Part shown: one piece after another, positions 529 through 14,248 of the stretch
How positions within the stretch are numbered: the stretch's first letter is position 1
Layout of the letters: every line of letters starts with the position of its first letter
Source of the DNA: Deltaproteobacteria bacterium RIFOXYA12_FULL_61_11
Lineage (GTDB): Bacteria; Bdellovibrionota_F; JAHFAK01; YA12-FULL-61-11
DNA length: 17,702 bases
Assembly (NCBI GenBank): GCA_001799195.1
Contig: MGSU01000040.1
Span: forward strand, 1-17,702
Direction of reading: 5' to 3'
Notes under the pieces: generated by a model
What the model was told of the DNA's origin: nothing
Seen by the model: the letters and a program-made list of their open reading frames with translations, nothing else
Database searches by the model: none
Program-made: the position numbers and the translations under genes

Positions 529-553
529 TCTTCTTCCCTCCCGAGGAGCCGGT

Positions 554-913
554 ATGAGCAAAGAGAAACCGCCCTACGAACCGCCACGGGCCGTGGTTTT
601 CGCCTCCCCAGCCTCGTCGAGTGCCTCCAAGAAATGCACCACCGGTGGTTCTGCCGACCAGAGCTGCACCGCGGGGAACGCCGCCAATAACGGCTGCACC
701 ACGGGTAACGCCGCCTCGGGTTCGAATTGCCTCAGCGGGGGCAGCGCCAACAACAAGTGCACCACCGGCTCCGCTGCGGGACACACCTGCACCAGCGGGG
801 GGCAAGCGTCGGCCGCCGATGGCAAGTGCATGACCGGCAGCGCGGCGACCAAGTTCTGCGTCACCGGCTCCGCTGCCAGACAATCCTGCACTTCCGGTGG
901 CGCGGCTTCGTAA
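554..913 (+). CDS. Cys-repeat small protein, candidate RiPP precursor
   Basis: The 119-residue protein starts at an ATG preceded by GAGGAGCC. Residues 1-27 form a leader-like part containing PPYEPPRAVVF, which fits the Tyr-x-x-Pro pattern used by RRE/PqqD-recognised RiPP leaders. From residue 28 there are nine repeats of the type C-[TLMV]-[TSA]-G-x-[AS]-[AS]-x-x-x, with cysteines at 28, 38, 48, 59, 69, 79, 92, 102 and 112. Spacing is 10 residues except two longer steps of 11 and 13. There are no other cysteines, no hydrophobic signal peptide and almost no large residues in the repeats. Small Cys/Gly/Ala/Ser/Thr repeats behind a leader are typical of modified peptides such as radical-SAM thioether products. 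No modifying enzyme lies inside the window. Alternatives are a metal-binding or structural repeat protein. The reading frame and repeats are seen directly; the RiPP role is inferred. Confidence 0.75.
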   Translation: MSKEKPPYEPPRAVVFASPASSSASKKCTTGGSADQSCTAGNAANNGCTTGNAASGSNCLSGGSANNKCTTGSAAGHTCTSGGQASAADGKCMTGSAATKFCVTGSAARQSCTSGGAAS

Positions 914-919
914 CCACCG

Positions 920-1375
920 TCAGGCTTTCCTCTTACCGCCGAGCACTTTACGCCCAACCGCCTCGAGAACGCCGAAAAGACCAAGAACCATACTGCCAAC
1001 CACCACACCCTTGATACCACGATCTGCCGGCCCCACTTTTCGCACCGAGCCCGTGGGACTGCGCAGGCCGACCACGCGCCAACGTAGCTCCCGGGCATGA
1101 GCCACTTCGTACCACCGCGAACCATCTCCGCGGTGGATGATCCAGCGCCACCGGGCAAGCCCGAACCCTCCGACCAGGCGATGACAGACCGAGCTCTGCC
1201 CTTCGAGCACAACGAGCTCGCCCCTTCGAACCCGTCCCGGCTCCACCGGCTCCACCAACACGCTCCATCCCGGGCGCACGGTCGGGGTCATGCTGCGACC
1301 AACCAGGAGGAAGGCTCTCGGCCGCTCGGGAGGATCCCCATCCCTGGGCAGTGATTTGCGTTTGCCTCTGACCAT
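920..1375 (-). CDS. S24/S26-family peptidase, SipW-like (Ser/His) small signal peptidase
   Basis: This 151-residue protein has the S26 box GRSMTPTVRPG with the nucleophile Ser28. The block RRGELVVLEG follows, and then CHRLVGG with His65 where SipW/archaeal-type signal peptidases carry His instead of the general-base Lys. It lacks the N-terminal membrane anchor of housekeeping LepB but has one hydrophobic, Gly-rich segment near residues 118-142 close to the C-terminus. S24/S26 peptidases of this compact kind are often found beside PqqD/RiPP genes, where they may cut leaders. Here the gene is convergent with the Cys-repeat gene, with 6 bases between the stops. The ATG at 1375 has no clear Shine-Dalgarno, so the exact start is uncertain. 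It is divergent from the carboxypeptidase gene, with 68 bases between the starts. Confidence 0.72.
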   Translation of the reverse strand: MVRGKRKSLPRDGDPPERPRAFLLVGRSMTPTVRPGWSVLVEPVEPGRVRRGELVVLEGQSSVCHRLVGGFGLARWRWIIHRGDGSRWYEVAHARELRWRVVGLRSPTGSVRKVGPADRGIKGVVVGSMVLGLFGVLEAVGRKVLGGKRKA

Positions 1376-4381: not shown

Positions 4382-5371
4382 TCAGGGCTTCGCAGGTACG
4401 GAGGGAGGTGTCCCAGGAGCCGGCGCCGCGGCTGGAGCAGACTCAACCGCTGGAGCGGGAGCAGGCGTAGGGGCCGGAGCAGGTGCCGGGGCAGGCTCTG
4501 GGGCTGGAGCAGGTGCCGGGGCAGGAGTAGGTGCCGGGGCAGGTGTTGGTGCAGGAACCGGTGCAGGTGCCGGTGCAGGTGCCGGGGCAGGGGCCGGTGC
4601 AGGTGCCGGGGCAGGAGTGGGTGCCGGGGCAGGTTTATCCCCCTTGCCCTTGCCCTTGCCTTTACCCTTACCCTTGCTCGGTTCCGGAGCGACCGGAGGA
4701 GGCGTGGGTTGTTCCTCGGGGGTTGGAGCGACTTCCGGTTCAACGGGCTTAGCCGGAACCATACTGGGTCCGACGACCTTATTGACCTTCACCTCCCTGC
4801 TCTCCTCTTCCCGGGTGAAACCGCCGATAATTTCCAGGCGGGTCCCTTCGCCGACCAGGTCGCTCACCGTGATCGGCTTGCCTTCCTTCAACGGACAGGC
4901 AACAACGGTAGCCACCACCTTGCCGGCATAATAGAATTTATCCTTGAGCATGATGCGGTCCTCGACAATGGAATCCGCACCGGCTTCGTCGAGCCGAACC
5001 AGAATTCGGTAGTCGGCCTCGGGAGGCAGCAGAGTGACCACTCCATCGGTTGCTACCTGCATGCCATACGGCAGCACAAAAATCCCCTGACCGGCGAGTT
5101 GAGCCTCGACCACAAAACGCACATACTTATCATACGCCGCCCCGGTCGCCAGAGCTCCTGCGACATCGACAAAGACGGTCTTGCCCTTGAGTTCGGGCAA
5201 CTCCAACTTCTCAAAAGCCTTCCGAACGGCGCTGGATACCGTTTCCTGTTGTGCGGGGATTGCCACACTGTAGGCCCCGGGAGTGACCGGCAAGTAGCGG
5301 CCCTCCTTCGCGCATCCCATCATCCAGGCAGCGGCGAACAACCCGCTAACCACGAGCAACATCTTCATCAT
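4382..5371 (-). CDS. Paralogous lipoprotein 4 of the cassette, with Lys-Gly and Ala-Pro tail
   Basis: The start is the ATG at 5371 because GGGAGGAC lies 7 bases upstream; a TTG at 5389 overlaps that ribosome site and is less likely. The 329-residue protein has a lipoprotein signal with Cys20 in AWMMGC, followed by ERYLP-like residues shared with the next gene. The folded part (about 38-200) carries the cassette's family pattern: PAQQETVSSAV, LKGKTVFVDVAG, EAQLAGQGIFVLP and YRILVRLDEAGAD. After residue 205 come a Pro/Glu-rich linker, a KG dipeptide tract (233-245) and a long Ala-Pro tract (from 247). Such extended tails in anchored lipoproteins can span the periplasm or peptidoglycan. The family looks loosely like DUF6655 lipoproteins; its function is not known. 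It is the last gene of the cassette, 86 bases after its neighbour. Confidence 0.85.
   Translation of the reverse strand: MMKMLLVVSGLFAAAWMMGCAKEGRYLPVTPGAYSVAIPAQQETVSSAVRKAFEKLELPELKGKTVFVDVAGALATGAAYDKYVRFVVEAQLAGQGIFVLPYGMQVATDGVVTLLPPEADYRILVRLDEAGADSIVEDRIMLKDKFYYAGKVVATVVACPLKEGKPITVSDLVGEGTRLEIIGGFTREEESREVKVNKVVGPSMVPAKPVEPEVAPTPEEQPTPPPVAPEPSKGKGKGKGKGKGDKPAPAPTPAPAPAPAPAPAPAPAPAPVPAPTPAPAPTPAPAPAPAPEPAPAPAPAPTPAPAPAVESAPAAAPAPGTPPSVPAKP
4440..4680 (-). repeat. Low-complexity tandem repeats encoding Ala-Pro and Lys-Gly tracts
   Basis: The plus strand shows many imperfect copies of units such as GGTGCAGGTGCCGGGGCAG (about 4450-4635). These are followed by hexamer repeats of the CCCTTG/CCCTTA type (about 4635-4680). 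They encode the Ala-Pro and Lys-Gly tracts of the lipoprotein tail. Repeats of this kind change length easily by slippage. Confidence 0.85.
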
Positions 5372-5457
5372 GCCAAGGTCCTCCCTCAATGACCCATTCT
5401 CTTACATCTGAACAACGAGGCTCTGAAGCGTCCTTCGATCATACGTTCCGCCAGGAT

Positions 5458-6270
5458 TCACTTTTTCGGTACACTATCTGCTTCGGTCTCGGCGGTCTGG
5501 CCACCGGTACCATAGATAACCGGAGCATAGCCCTGCGTGAAGTAGCCGGTATCGGCTGCTCCGTCTTTCTTCTTGGCGGAATAGACTCGCGGGGTCGAGC
5601 TACCGACATACCCATAATACTCCTCGACTTGTACATCGGCGAAGGTCCCCGTTTTCAGCACCTCGTGGTAAATCCAATTCTTCCCCTCGTCCGGCGGAGG
5701 CAGAAAACTGGCTTCACCGCCTTGGAGAAGAGGGAGCACCGCCACGCGCGCATCCACCTTTCCGACCAGGGAACGCGAATCCGCGCTGGTCTCGTCATCC
5801 GCGCCGGCAGCATCGAGGAAAAGCACGATGCGATACGTAGGTGCAGGATCGGTCGGGTATTGCCGGGTCACGGGTTCTACCCCCTGGTGAGCCACCACGG
5901 TCCACGATCCGGCCTCTCCCTTGTCGATACCCGCAGGGGCTCTACCAATCTTCCGTAAAGGAGTCAACAGCTTGACCCCTGGCCTGGTTTGGAGCAACCT
6001 CGTCTCCAACCTAGCACGAGCCAAGCCCTCGATGGCGGGATCGAGCAGACACCCTGCGACATCGATCACCACCGTCGCTCCTTCGAGGTGTACGAGCGGA
6101 GAGAAATCGAGCTGATCGAAGGCCTTGTCGAGCGCTTCGACGATCATCATCTGTTGCGCCGGAACCGGTATATTCGCCGATACTGTGGCGAGTGGTAGGT
6201 AGCGTCGTTCGCTGGCGCACCCCCCGAGGAACATCGCAACGGCTAGAAGAGCAACAACAGTGCTGCGCAT
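5458..6270 (-). CDS. Paralogous lipoprotein 3 of the cassette
   Basis: The protein has 270 residues. The ATG at 6270 is preceded by GAGGAGGG at about 8 bases. The signal MRSTVVALLAVAMFLGGC gives a lipobox with Cys18. Family features are PVPAQQMMIVEALDKAF, LEGATVVIDVAG, ARLETRLLQTRPG and YRIVLFLDAAGAD. It differs from its siblings by an insertion of about 35 residues between the last two motifs (around PAGIDKGEAGSWTVV) and by a C-terminal extension rich in Tyr, Gly and Thr ending in ADSVPKK. It starts 3 bases after the stop of the upstream gene, so the two are surely co-transcribed. It is predicted to be anchored in a membrane facing the periplasm. The role is unknown. Confidence 0.85.
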   Translation of the reverse strand: MRSTVVALLAVAMFLGGCASERRYLPLATVSANIPVPAQQMMIVEALDKAFDQLDFSPLVHLEGATVVIDVAGCLLDPAIEGLARARLETRLLQTRPGVKLLTPLRKIGRAPAGIDKGEAGSWTVVAHQGVEPVTRQYPTDPAPTYRIVLFLDAAGADDETSADSRSLVGKVDARVAVLPLLQGGEASFLPPPDEGKNWIYHEVLKTGTFADVQVEEYYGYVGSSTPRVYSAKKKDGAADTGYFTQGYAPVIYGTGGQTAETEADSVPKK

Positions 6271-6273
6271 GAA

Positions 6274-6849
6274 TCAGCCCTCCTCGTACTCATAGACATA
6301 GCCATCACGGATGATGACTTCCTTGCTCTCGCCCTGAATCTTCTGGGGCCACGTCTTGCCGGTGGCGAGTTCGTGCACCAAAACCTGCAAGGTACAGACT
6401 CCCTTGTAAGTAACCCGTTCGTTCGACTTGCTGCCCATGAATTCGCTGTACTTGGTATAGAGGTTCGAGCCGAGTCGATCGACACTGACGAGGACGCGGA
6501 AGAGCGAGGCTTCGACCGGGAAGGTCTCGACCTGTGTATCGCCATACTGTTTCCTCTCGGTGGGCAACACCACCACCCCCTCACGGGCAAGGGTATACTC
6601 CACCACACCGCGCACGTACTCGGTCACATTGCCGAGACCACCGATAACCTCGACGAAGGCTGTCTTGCCCTTGACCGCGGCGACGAGGGTCGGATCGAGA
6701 GTCCCGAGAGCACGACTCACCGCCTGGGCCAAGGTGTCTTGCTGGATGGGAATACCGACCGGTGCAATCCGGTCCCGGATGGGTACATAGCGGCTTGTCG
6801 AGCAACCACACAGGGCCACGCCGAGCACGATGCAGAGTAACCTGGTCAT
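6274..6849 (-). CDS. Paralogous lipoprotein 2 of the cassette
   Basis: The protein has 191 residues. The ATG at 6849 is chosen over a GTG at 6852 because the GGAGGT ribosome site, inside the end of the upstream gene, is 5 bases from the ATG and only 2 from the GTG. Stop and start share one base (TGATG). The signal MTRLLCIVLGVALCGC has a lipobox with Cys16, followed by STSRYVP, matching the RYLP of the next two proteins. Family motifs are IPIQQDTLAQAVSRAL, VKGKTAFVEVIGG, EYTLAREGVVVLP and FRVLVSVDRLGSN. It ends soon after the core, without the tails of the later genes. The function is unknown. Confidence 0.85.
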   Translation of the reverse strand: MTRLLCIVLGVALCGCSTSRYVPIRDRIAPVGIPIQQDTLAQAVSRALGTLDPTLVAAVKGKTAFVEVIGGLGNVTEYVRGVVEYTLAREGVVVLPTERKQYGDTQVETFPVEASLFRVLVSVDRLGSNLYTKYSEFMGSKSNERVTYKGVCTLQVLVHELATGKTWPQKIQGESKEVIIRDGYVYEYEEG

Positions 6850-7403
6850 CACTCACCTCCGGTGTAAACGGTGGTCAGATCAACAACAGTGGCTTTGCCC
6901 GACAACTCGTACGGCACCACGTCCCCGGTCGCAGCGACCAAGGGATAGGCAACCACGTTCAGTCGCACCTTGCCCTCGAAGGAACCCTTGCGCAACATGG
7001 TGAAGCCGAAGAATTCCTTGTAACTATCGATGAGATCGGCCCCTGCGACATCGACCACGGCCAAGACTCGATACGCGGTCTCGGCGTTCCGAACGGGATG
7101 AACGAACATCCCCTGCCCGATCAGGCGAGTCTCGAGGGCTCGGCCGATGTAACCGAGCACATCGTCGGCACAATACAGCCCAACCACCTCGATATAGCCA
7201 CTCTTTCCAGCCAACACTTTGAAATCAACGATTTCAAGGGCATTGGAGACCGCTTCGCTCAACATCTGTTGCTGTCGCGCGATGGGTACCTCGTCGGGAT
7301 AGGGGACCTGATGAATCCGACGTCCGCGCGTCGCCCCCCCTCCACAGCCGAGCGCGAAAAGCAGGGCCAGTGCCACTGCCGCTCGAACATACTGCCTACT
7401 CAT
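6849..7403 (-). CDS. Paralogous lipoprotein 1, first gene of the cassette
   Basis: The protein has 184 residues. The ATG at 7403 follows a GGAGGAGG ribosome site at 6 bases; a frame open further upstream to 7619 includes no comparable start. The signal MSRQYVRAAVALALLFALGC has a lipobox with Cys20. The mature core shows the family pattern PIARQQQMLSEAVSNALEI, LAGKSGYIEVVG, ALETRLIGQGMFVHP and YRVLAVVDVAGAD, then FEGKVRLNVVAYPL. The alternating helix, strand, helix, strand layout is roughly that of DUF6655/LPP20-like lipoproteins; this comparison is from memory and weak. It leads a four-gene minus-strand unit with a possible promoter near 7519-7547. Confidence 0.83.
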   Translation of the reverse strand: MSRQYVRAAVALALLFALGCGGGATRGRRIHQVPYPDEVPIARQQQMLSEAVSNALEIVDFKVLAGKSGYIEVVGLYCADDVLGYIGRALETRLIGQGMFVHPVRNAETAYRVLAVVDVAGADLIDSYKEFFGFTMLRKGSFEGKVRLNVVAYPLVAATGDVVPYELSGKATVVDLTTVYTGGE

Positions 7404-7518
7404 GTTCCGCCTCCTCCTACCTCGTGGTTGGGACCTCATCTCGCGAGGACCTTCTTCACGCTGTACGATCCGTGGTTTTCCAATGTAGTACATCGATATC
7501 ATTAGAACAGCGGGTCTG

Positions 7519-7547
7519 AGTGTTCTCCCCTGGACGCTGCTTGTCAA
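7519..7547 (-). promoter_or_regulatory. Candidate promoter of the lipoprotein cassette
   Basis: On the minus strand a perfect -35 hexamer TTGACA (7547-7542) is followed after 17 bases by AACACT (7524-7519), a poor -10. It lies 116 bases upstream of the first lipoprotein start and next to the end of a MITE-like repeat. The weak -10 keeps confidence low. Confidence 0.3.
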
Positions 7548-7565
7548 GGGCAATCCGCACAACCC

Positions 7566-7698
7566 TTCAGTCTTGTTTGGGTAAGGGGTCCTGTCGCCTC
7601 TCACCCCCACCATGCTCATGCTTGCGCGTGGCGGGGGTCCCCCGTCGGCGCCACCCCAATGTTGTGACGAACAACCTGCAGTTCACCCCAAGACTGAA
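7566..7698 (+). mobile_element. MITE-like element, copy 1
   Basis: This 133 bp element is bounded by inverted TTCAGTCTTG / CAAGACTGAA ends. A 73 bp core (7585-7657) matches the core of a second copy at 9912-9984 (opposite strand) at 68 of 73 positions. The core includes a hairpin with GTGGCG / CGCCAC arms enclosing GGGGTCCCC. It has no transposase and no convincing target duplication. Together with the candidate cassette promoter it makes up most of the 330-base gap between the lipoprotein cassette (start 7403) and the next gene (stop 7734). Confidence 0.7.
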
Positions 7699-9868: not shown

Positions 9869-10004
9869 TTCAGTTTTGGGTGAATTGCACGTGAGTGACC
9901 ACTCCATCGATGGGGTGGCACCGATGGGGGTCCCCCGCCACGCGCAAGGATGAGCATGGTGGGGGTGAGAGGTGACAGGACCCCTCGAAGCACCCAAAAC
10001 TGAA
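9869..10004 (-). mobile_element. MITE-like element, copy 2
   Basis: This 136 bp element is bounded by perfect 14-base inverted repeats TTCAGTTTTGGGTG / CACCCAAAACTGAA. Its core (9912-9984) is the reverse complement of the copy-1 core with five mismatches, and it keeps the same internal hairpin. No transposase and no clear target duplication are seen. It fills much of the 322-base gap between the transporter start (9788) and the glycosyltransferase start (10111). The rest of that gap holds only a weak plus-strand promoter match, TCGACA at 10048 and TACCCT at 10072. Confidence 0.75.
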
Positions 10005-12366: not shown

Positions 12367-13464
12367 TCAGGGACTTCCGAATTCCGCGTCTTCGTCGAGT
12401 TGTTGCTCACAAGACCATACGCCATTGTTATTTATCAAAAATTTGCACGACCAGTGGCCAGGTCCACCATGATAGAAAAGGTAGGCCGACGCGGCGATAT
12501 TCGCCTCCGGATCGAAGATGCTGGCTCCGGGGAACCCGGCCTTGCTGGCCCGTCCATCCCAGTACTGGGGCATGTGCTGGAAGAGCCCCGAGGCCCCGGA
12601 CGAAGAGTTCTTCGCATTGGGATTTCCCCCGCTCTCGCACTTCATGACCCGCATCGCCCACGCTACATCCTCGGGTTTGAAATACTGCTCCACCAGCGGA
12701 CGCCAAGCCTCAACGCCGAGCGTATGCCAATCCCCGACCACCTCTTCGTCCTCGGCCAGGGTATCGGGAAGACACACTCCGATACGGGTGACGGCAGACC
12801 CACTCTGACGGCGTTGGGCGCAGCGATACCCCGACCGGCAGCCGCTGCCGGGGTACACGCCGGTATCGCAGCGGGCGAGGCATAAACCGCTGTCATGGGA
12901 ACTGATCTCCCCACCGTCGATACAAGCCGTACCAACATATTTGGTATCGACCGCGGCCGGGCAGACCGAGGTGCAGGCTCTCGAGCACGTCCCCTGGGGA
13001 TACCCCTCTTGCTCTCGCAGACAATAGGCCAGCTCATAGCGACACGAGCTGTTGTCCTGACAGGGCGCACCGACCCAACCGGCATTGACGAGGTCCCGAG
13101 CGGGCAACGGCTCCGCTCCGGCAGTAGCAGGGGCGGAGCCGGTACCGGAGGCCTCGGGCAGGAGTGGAGAAAGAGCGGGAGGAGGTTGCTGGATCGGCGC
13201 GCTAGGAAGATTTCCGGATCCTGCGGTGGGCGTCGTCGCCGCGGGCGCACTCGAACCAACGGGCACGGTCAGGCCTGGGCGTTCGGGATCGCCCCCTTGC
13301 TCGGGGTCCTGGAGCTCGATGTACTCCCCGTCACCCGCCTCAGGGGTAGGTCCACAGGCCAGGAGCAGACCTAGCCAAGCAGAGAGTACCGCCCCTGCCA
13401 GATCGCTCTTCGTGCGCCTTCCAAGAACTCGGTGCATACCCAAACCCGATCGTCGTCCATCCAT
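12367..13464 (-). CDS. Cys-rich lipoprotein with lytic transglycosylase (SLT) domain
   Basis: The ATG at 13464 is preferred because GGGGAAGG lies just upstream. The longer frame to 13509 begins inside a palindromic repeat, and a later ATG at 13437 is also possible. The 365-residue protein has a basic N-terminus and a lipobox ending LLLAC (Cys37). A Pro/Ala/Gly/Ser-rich linker follows, then a region with twelve cysteines in about 100 residues. The last 120 residues are an SLT/lysozyme-like domain with the catalytic Glu277 in KCESGGNPNAK, then SGASGLFQHMPQYWDGR and IAASAYLFYHGGPGHWSC. It should cleave peptidoglycan glycan strands from the envelope side, perhaps making room for the export complex. 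It lies 12 bases from the stop of the convergent glycosyltransferase gene. Confidence 0.88.
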   Translation of the reverse strand: MDGRRSGLGMHRVLGRRTKSDLAGAVLSAWLGLLLACGPTPEAGDGEYIELQDPEQGGDPERPGLTVPVGSSAPAATTPTAGSGNLPSAPIQQPPPALSPLLPEASGTGSAPATAGAEPLPARDLVNAGWVGAPCQDNSSCRYELAYCLREQEGYPQGTCSRACTSVCPAAVDTKYVGTACIDGGEISSHDSGLCLARCDTGVYPGSGCRSGYRCAQRRQSGSAVTRIGVCLPDTLAEDEEVVGDWHTLGVEAWRPLVEQYFKPEDVAWAMRVMKCESGGNPNAKNSSSGASGLFQHMPQYWDGRASKAGFPGASIFDPEANIAASAYLFYHGGPGHWSCKFLINNNGVWSCEQQLDEDAEFGSP

Positions 13465-13487
13465 TGCCTTCCCCAGCATACCACAGG

Positions 13488-13548
13488 GGAACCCGTAGGG
13501 GCACGGCATGCAAACAGGGGCACGGCAGGCCCTGCCCCTATGGGTTCC
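13488..13548. repeat. 61 bp palindromic repeat (GGGGCA type)
   Basis: Ends GGAACCCGTAGGGGCA and TGCCCCTATGGGTTCC are inverted repeats with one mismatch. Inside, AGGGGCACGGCA occurs twice in direct orientation, the second copy forming a hairpin with TGCCCCT. Short GTAGGGGCA-type palindromes are dispersed in many genomes. It lies between the WbqC-like and transglycosylase genes and reaches into the former. Confidence 0.7.
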
Positions 13549-14248
13549 GCCGGCCTGACAAGAGGACCTCGCGGCTTCGTTCCGCTCCGACGTTCAGGAG
13601 AAGATCGATCACGGCAAGGTGCGATACGAACGCATCCCAGCGCTGTGGATAGACCGGGTGTTCGTACTCGTGGAACAGCACGGCCAGCCCGGCCTCGGTA
13701 AAACGGTCGAGGTCGAGATAGTCTCGGCCCGCGGGCCCTGAAAGATAATGCGTGGCCTGAACGGCGAGGCACAAGTCGATCAGCCGGGTCGTCGGCCCTT
13801 CCCGCTTCTCGATGGTCGAGGAGCGCAGCCTCGGGGGCGCCGGTCCGAGGAAGCCGAGCAGGACCTCGGTCAATTCGATGCACAACTCGGCCAAGAGAGG
13901 ATGCGGTCTTCGCACGACTTCCTCGACCGCGGGATACACCTCGTCGAAGGAGGGACAACGTCCGTAGTACGTTTTCAGAGCCTGGCAATGCCGACGGCCG
14001 AAATCGGGGTCGGCGATGGTGACCTCGCGGATCGTCTGACCGAAACGATAGTTGACTGGTACGGTCAACCAGGTCGTGCCGGTCGTGATCTTGATCTTGT
14101 TCCGGTTCTTCCACTCGTTCTTCACGTACTGCACGTCATCGAGGTACACGAACACGTCTGCGGCCAGGAGTTTGTCGAAGTAGCCCAGCCAGGGCAGGTA
14201 CTGGGGCTGGTGGATGGCTGCTACCCGGCGTTCAGCGACAGCGATCAT
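13538..14248 (-). CDS. WbqC-like family protein
   Basis: The protein has 236 residues. The N-terminal signature AAIHQPQYLPWLGYFDKL, then YLDDVQYVKNEWKNRNKI and TVPVNYRFGQ, is that of the WbqC family. Its genes lie in O-antigen and capsule loci; the biochemical step is not firmly established, and a role in making modified amino-sugars has been proposed. Further landmarks are STIEKREGPTTRLIDLC and YLSGPAGRDYLD. The length is normal for the family. It overlaps the upstream GT4 gene by 17 bases. The ATG at 14248 has GGAGG about 13 bases away, which is rather far. The last three residues (RNP) and the TAG stop lie in a palindromic repeat, so the C-terminal end may be a replaced one. Confidence 0.9.
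   Translation of the reverse strand: MIAVAERRVAAIHQPQYLPWLGYFDKLLAADVFVYLDDVQYVKNEWKNRNKIKITTGTTWLTVPVNYRFGQTIREVTIADPDFGRRHCQALKTYYGRCPSFDEVYPAVEEVVRRPHPLLAELCIELTEVLLGFLGPAPPRLRSSTIEKREGPTTRLIDLCLAVQATHYLSGPAGRDYLDLDRFTEAGLAVLFHEYEHPVYPQRWDAFVSHLAVIDLLLNVGAERSREVLLSGRRNP

Follow-up and report, generated by a model that had tools for sequence, protein, structure and literature searches.

A nine-repeat Cys-x-x-Gly peptide, probably the precursor of a SynChlorMet-like radical-SAM-modified RiPP, encoded apart from its candidate enzymes

The gene at positions 554-913 of the window (the whole 17,702-nucleotide stretch analyzed here, which is the entire contig C40 of genome G000) probably encodes the precursor of a radical-SAM-modified RiPP of the SynChlorMet (Scm) type, with the maturation proposed below taken as a whole. 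Three lines of evidence lead to this reading, i.e., the architecture of the peptide, its co-occurrence at the genome level with a ScmE-like/ScmF-like pair of enzymes, and an adjacent S24/S26 peptidase of the type found in Scm cassettes. That the peptide is a RiPP precursor acted on by its genome's own ScmE-like/ScmF-like pair is, judging from sequence comparisons, very probable; the individual steps of maturation are graded below.

The precursor gene and its repeats

The initial annotation, made from the letters alone, described nine cysteines, one per repeat, at a 10-residue spacing with steps of 11 and 13, behind a 27-residue leader with Tyr-x-x-Pro and with no cysteine elsewhere. The open reading frame reproduces this description exactly: the cysteines stand at residues 28, 38, 48, 59, 69, 79, 92, 102, and 112 (steps of 10, 10, 11, 10, 10, 13, 10, and 10), the leader motif is YEPP, and the 119-aa product contains no other cysteine. 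Features of the gene and its neighbor are collected in Table 1.

Table 1. Coordinates of the precursor gene, its parts, and the neighboring peptidase gene in the window
Feature	Position	Strand	Basis
ScmA-like precursor peptide gene, 119 aa	554..913	+	ORF and relatives; the genome's only convincing one found
Shine-Dalgarno-like GAGGAG, ending 5 nt 5' of the ATG (554)	543..548	+	Sequence
Leader, 27 residues, MSKEKPPYEPPRAVVFASPASSSASKK	554..634	+	Alignment with relatives
YEPP (residues 8-11), a [YW]xxP motif; proposed PqqD-type RRE recognition site	575..586	+	Near-invariant in 44 relatives
Core, nine C-x-x-G units	635..910	+	Units start at nt 635, 665, 695, 728, 758, 788, 827, 857, 887
S24/S26 (signal-peptidase/LexA fold) peptidase-like protein, 151 aa; proposed leader peptidase	920..1375	-	HMM, alignment, model

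Every cysteine of the window peptide is followed by a glycine at +3 (9/9 C-x-x-G), in repeats that are low in complexity and rich in small residues. When the core was shuffled 200,000 times, no shuffle produced nine CxxG motifs (the maximum was seven), and none produced six steps of 10 between cysteines. Tandem Repeats Finder made no call for the CxxG repeat in the window, the DNA units being too diverged, and while all nine cysteines are encoded by TGC, the glycines are encoded by GGT, GGG, and GGC three times each. Because the Gly codons vary and the DNA units have diverged, the CxxG pattern appears to be held at the protein level rather than to stem from recent DNA duplication.

A peptidase-like gene beside the peptide gene

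The gene on the opposite strand is convergent with the peptide gene and lies six bases from its stop codon. Its product gave weak NCBIfam and Pfam matches to signal peptidase and S24 models, those in Pfam falling under the cut-off, and an iterated HMM placed it in the cassette-linked peptidase family. In an alignment of this protein with 19 others from Scm-type loci (20 aligned), Ser28-Met29 and His65 are invariant. Its AlphaFold model (mean pLDDT 78) matched the LexA C-domain (Z 11.2, rmsd 3.1, 96 aligned) and the E. coli signal peptidase (Z 10.3, rmsd 3.0, 96 aligned), structure matches overall having Z scores of about 9-11, and Foldseek ranked signal peptidases first, with weak E-values. 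The protein thus has both the fold and the Ser-containing active-site motif by which S24/S26 peptidases are defined. Leader removal by an S24/S26 enzyme is a somewhat favored prediction. In a review of RiPP leader proteases, S24, S26, and signal peptidase go unmentioned (PMC10885120).

The adjacent M14 carboxypeptidase gene at 1444-2889, considered as the source of a maturation enzyme, found no support among relatives; a relative of this gene lies at G000:C153:5287-5742 (68-72% DNA identity). Elsewhere in the window, 4382-7619 (-) holds four tandem, apparently paralogous lipoprotein-like ORFs, one of which (4382-5389) has a long Pro-Ala repeat at its end. The product of window 12367-13509 (-) and that of 13501-14001 (-) in locus L015, on a different contig, share a similar C-terminal lytic-transglycosylase-like stretch (ESGG...SSGASGLFQ.MPQYWD).

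Relatives adjoin radical SAM/SPASM enzymes

Searching with the window peptide retrieved two similar peptides in genome G031, which alone stood clearly above the noise; viral contigs, scanned for the protein pattern of the window peptide, yielded no relative, and NCBIfam and Pfam gave no match to it. Single-sequence searches with such a peptide are too weak because the core is of low complexity. The G031 operon that encodes the two peptides also codes for an HPrK-like protein and an S24/S26-PqqD fusion, besides two radical SAM/SPASM proteins, the first of which has a PqqD domain. Of these two enzymes, the one with PqqD finds its best NCBIfam model in ScmE (376 bits) and the other in ScmF (325 bits), each short of the cut-off of 400. 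Both models belong to the Scm cassette named in silico in NCBIfam (ScmA, TIGR04252; ScmD, ScmC, ScmE, and ScmF, TIGR04248-04251), which was reportedly described by Haft and Basu in 2011.

Seeding of genome contigs with an ScmF alignment yielded 80 loci, 50 of the ScmF type and 30 that surround other radical SAM enzymes. At least 35 of the former encode peptides in which a [YW]xxP leader is joined to C-x-x-G motifs. When a minimum of four CxxG is demanded, a stricter criterion, 26 of the 50 are positive and none of the 30. The surroundings of ScmF-type loci encode radical SAM/SPASM proteins, often PqqD, HPrK-like proteins, S24/S26 peptidases, and NTP_transf_5 nucleotidyltransferases, with S24/S26-like peptidases in 28 of the 50. 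The Chlorobiaceae locus L047 exceeds the cut-offs for ScmC, ScmD, ScmE, and ScmF (577 bits for the last). Locus L009 has a ScmF-like protein (325 bits to TIGR04251) and, at 6375-7250, an S24/S26 peptidase with a fused C-terminal PqqD domain, a fusion that ties the peptidase to leader binding. On a Nitrospirae contig (L022, 5184-12635) two Scm-like enzyme sets adjoin, with one CxxG peptide between them. Similar sets of enzymes and peptides are found in many anaerobic bacteria and archaea.

The initial annotation had taken the peptide for a RiPP precursor, and the relatives bear this out, given that CxxG/[YW]xxP peptides adjoin radical SAM/SPASM enzymes, often with PqqD. Its worry that no RiPP enzyme might lie near any homologue was answered by the at least 35 positive ScmF-type loci, many of which also encode PqqD (RRE) and an S24/S26 peptidase. 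The repeat itself had gone unrecognized; this stands for the window peptide, which no model matches, but not for the kind of precursor, which had already been named ScmA (TIGR04252). That model matches 11 of 44 relatives and gave no match to the window peptide at E<=1.

Of 386 sampled genomes, 10 gave a match to the peptide model and 13 to the ScmF model, and all 10 are among the 13. Chance alone would produce such co-occurrence with a probability of about 1.6e-17, or of 5e-13 once the three genomes known to have contributed to the model are set aside; both figures overstate the independence of the test, since further genomes in the sample may be related to the training loci or overlap with them.

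The enzymes of the source genome lie on another contig

Since the window is a whole contig, the modifying enzymes were sought elsewhere in the genome, which is fragmented (342 contigs, 87% complete) and has only one relative of its class among the sampled genomes. Contig C338 encodes an NTP_transf_5 protein, a PqqD-radical SAM-SPASM protein (ScmE-like), and a ScmF-like protein. For the ScmE-like protein the best of all models is TIGR04250 (95 bits) and for the ScmF-like protein TIGR04251 (288 bits), both under the cut-off of 400. Run against the whole genome, the ScmF alignment gave the C338 protein 709 bits and the next match 84, and the peptide alignment gave the window peptide as the sole convincing match. 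The PqqD domain is N-terminal in the ScmE-like enzyme (25.3 bits, Pfam cut-off 23.4), for which TIGR04248 was not reached or not listed, and both radical SAM enzymes carry CxxxCxxC. As for ScmC (HPrK-like), the only match in this 87% complete genome is a weak one on contig C73 (19.8 bits, cut-off 125). The genome therefore has a leader-core precursor, an RRE, and modifying enzymes, the general set for a radical-SAM-modified RiPP.

The Scm genes are not clustered in this genome. Because the peptide is on C40 and the enzymes are on C338, with their cluster well inside that 24-kb contig, peptide and enzymes are not neighbors, unlike in most relatives. The two contigs share an interspersed repeat present in dozens of copies genome-wide, and for this reason we assign them to one genome. 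The repeat, about 75-120 bp long, lies at 7584-7658 and 9911-9985 of the window as inverted copies and at G000:C338:13404-13521; its copies mostly have 84-97% identity to the window copy, at about 40 places among the matches listed. Rfam gave no match for it, and as single-stranded DNA it does not fold strongly.

Two other loci in the genome were considered as partners and set aside. The C73 locus has PqqD, an HPrK-like protein, and another SPASM-type enzyme but no ScmE/ScmF, and the C7 PqqD locus has no ScmE/ScmF and no radical SAM enzyme among the ORFs listed. The former, L014 (G000:C73:7000-14596), is a second RiPP-like locus with PqqD, an HPrK-like protein, several radical SAM proteins, and an S24/S26-like match; a short ORF at its contig end (MTLTDRDRPEDKPLYTPPAILRTYTQEELRELQ...) is free of repeats, the C73 short peptide having YTPP.

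Conserved features of the repeats and leaders

Repeat statistics were taken from 239 cysteines located after the leader motif in 44 aligned precursors from bacteria of anaerobic lineages and from methanogens. Glycine stands at +3 of 213 of the 239 cysteines; of the remaining 26, 19 have it at +4, which brings those with glycine at one or the other position to 232. This fraction is inflated by the selection of the peptides, which demanded C-x(1-3)-G or C-x-x-G, although the way in which a later, looser set was chosen gave +3 no advantage over +2 or +4. The 19 cases at +4 indicate that the glycine is retained even where the distance changes. Ala or Pro occupies +6 in 65% of units; besides Cys and Gly, no position is close to invariant, and no acidic residue is conserved. 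The simplest reading of this conservation is that Cys and Gly would be the reacting pair, since no other position is close to fixed and Gly is kept at +3/+4. Variable cysteine positions combined with an export signal, which the initial annotation had named as a sign of a structural protein, are not what the relatives present: the motif is C-x-x-G, the repeats are spaced mostly 9-13 residues apart, and no Sec-like signal was found in the leaders.

Between the leader motif and the core, A-x-G occurs in 22 of the 44 leaders; the number expected from shuffling is 6.6 (SD 2.2), and not one of 5000 shuffles matched the observed count. The A-x-G/A-x-A type of site fits the -3/-1 rule of signal peptidases. 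The window leader has no A-x-G, offering only small-x-Ala sites such as S-S-A, and for this reason the proposed cleavage site is drawn from the relatives. Double-glycine cleavage by a C39-type exporter was rejected, as GG is not enriched in the leaders (3 of 44, with 6.0 expected) and the three cassette ABC exporters checked have no C39 peptidase domain.

Proposed pathway and alternatives

In the pathway that we propose, the PqqD domain of the ScmE-like enzyme would bind the Tyr-Glu-Pro-Pro leader and the two SPASM enzymes would work along the core, linking the sulfur of each Cys to the alpha carbon of the Gly at +3. Every repeat would thereby gain one small sactionine ring, unnested, with up to nine in all; the S24/S26 enzyme would then cut the leader after a site of the Ala-x-Gly/Ala type, and the cleaved product would be exported. 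For a Cys-to-Gly thioether in each repeat, suggested by analogy, we hold the case to be evenly poised; the glycine may be kept for turn geometry and not as a reaction partner. The complete picture, a poly-sactionine ladder of at most nine unnested four-residue Cys-to-Gly rings, which a SPASM pair would build on a precursor whose gene lies elsewhere in the genome and which an S24/S26 Ser-His leader protease would release at Ala-x-Gly/Ala, is tentative and, with all its parts required at once, rather doubtful.

The strongest competitor keeps the same enzymes and the RiPP precursor but puts another modification on each repeat, whether a ranthipeptide-type thioether to the beta or gamma carbon of another residue, epimerization of the conserved +6 Ala, a C-C cross-link, or two different marks, placed by the two enzymes. 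We give this an appreciable, though clearly lesser, chance. Each cassette has two SPASM enzymes, and the Scm-maturation reading does not account for what the second of them does; a Cys-Gly ring alone does not account for the Ala/Pro preference at +6; and ScmE and ScmF also weakly match the PapB and StsB models, which disagree on chemistry. Cys-to-Gly linkage is favored over it by the fact that only Cys and Gly are close to invariant, the Gly being kept with +3/+4 spacing.

The separate contigs, the divergent ScmE-like enzyme (95 bits), and the failure to find ScmC count against the Scm-maturation reading and would suit a stranded relic, i.e., a former cassette precursor that is now unlinked and no longer matured. 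We consider a relic improbable, given that the frame is intact with a good Shine-Dalgarno sequence, that nine perfect CxxG are kept with varied synonymous codons, that CxxxCxxC is present in both enzymes and Ser and His in the peptidase, and that another genome, G287, also has precursors on contigs without a ScmF match. More improbable still is an unmodified secreted, structural, or metal-binding Cys-rich repeat protein: low-complexity repeats of small residues do look structural and the genome's own enzymes are not adjacent, but the leader has a conserved YxxP and nothing Sec-like, relatives adjoin rSAM, PqqD, and peptidase genes, and in the 386-genome sample the peptide is confined to genomes with ScmF. 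A Scm-type RiPP precursor thus remains the reading that we prefer.

Comparison with known systems

Our literature search found no paper mentioning SynChlorMet or its TIGR accessions and no report of the Scm enzymes' action on each Cys-Gly unit. The kind of precursor is already known; an unlinked nine-repeat member that is matched by no model is new. The alignment of the 44 precursors gives the repeat unit as C-x-x-G with Ala/Pro at +6 and mostly 9-13 residues between repeats, and it also yields the leader motif and a probable site of cleavage; the co-occurrence of peptide and ScmF offers a rule for finding unlinked precursors of the Scm-like kind.

The YxxPxL motif has been examined in a lasso peptide, that of the Bradymonas cluster bsf, which encodes a YxxPxL precursor, a PqqD-type RRE, a kinase, and a nucleotidyltransferase (PMC10368454). 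Its leader motif is related to [YW]xxP and its accessory genes are of the same types as in Scm-like loci, but the product is a lasso macrolactam, the protease is different, and the gene list has no radical SAM enzyme. In TvgA/TvgB, a radical SAM enzyme repeatedly modifies a TVGG-repeat peptide (PMC9062424). The likeness lies in a short repeating motif that is modified repeatedly; there, however, a C-C bond converts Val to cyclopropylglycine, and the TVGG motif contains no Cys. The PapA motif is repeated. PapB-type ranthipeptides carry radical SAM thioether cross-links from Cys to Asp/Glu (PMC9413430), an acceptor that sets them apart from window-type peptides, in which no acidic residue is conserved. 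The SPASM enzyme GggB makes the alpha-thioethers Cys31-Gly34 and Cys25-Ser28 of streptosactin, two unnested four-residue rings (PMC8172795; one sentence of this review prints Cys15, its detailed section Cys25). Streptosactin (GggA/GggB) is similar in being a sactipeptide whose SPASM-made rings correspond to C-x-x-[GS], and different in having two rings in a 14-residue product and another enzyme family, leader, and protease.

The closest system is SynChlorMet itself, in that the relatives' precursors adjoin two SPASM enzymes, one near the ScmE model and one near the ScmF model. The window peptide differs in its nine repeats, in having no TIGR04252 match, and in being unlinked, with its own ScmE and ScmF under the cut-offs and ScmC not found. 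Judged strictly it is no member, because the ScmA model, the cut-offs for ScmE and ScmF, ScmC, and clustering all speak against it; "SynChlorMet-like" is the best name. There is nevertheless a strong case, drawn from sequence, that the window gene would work like a Scm precursor and that its product would be acted on by the enzymes on C338.
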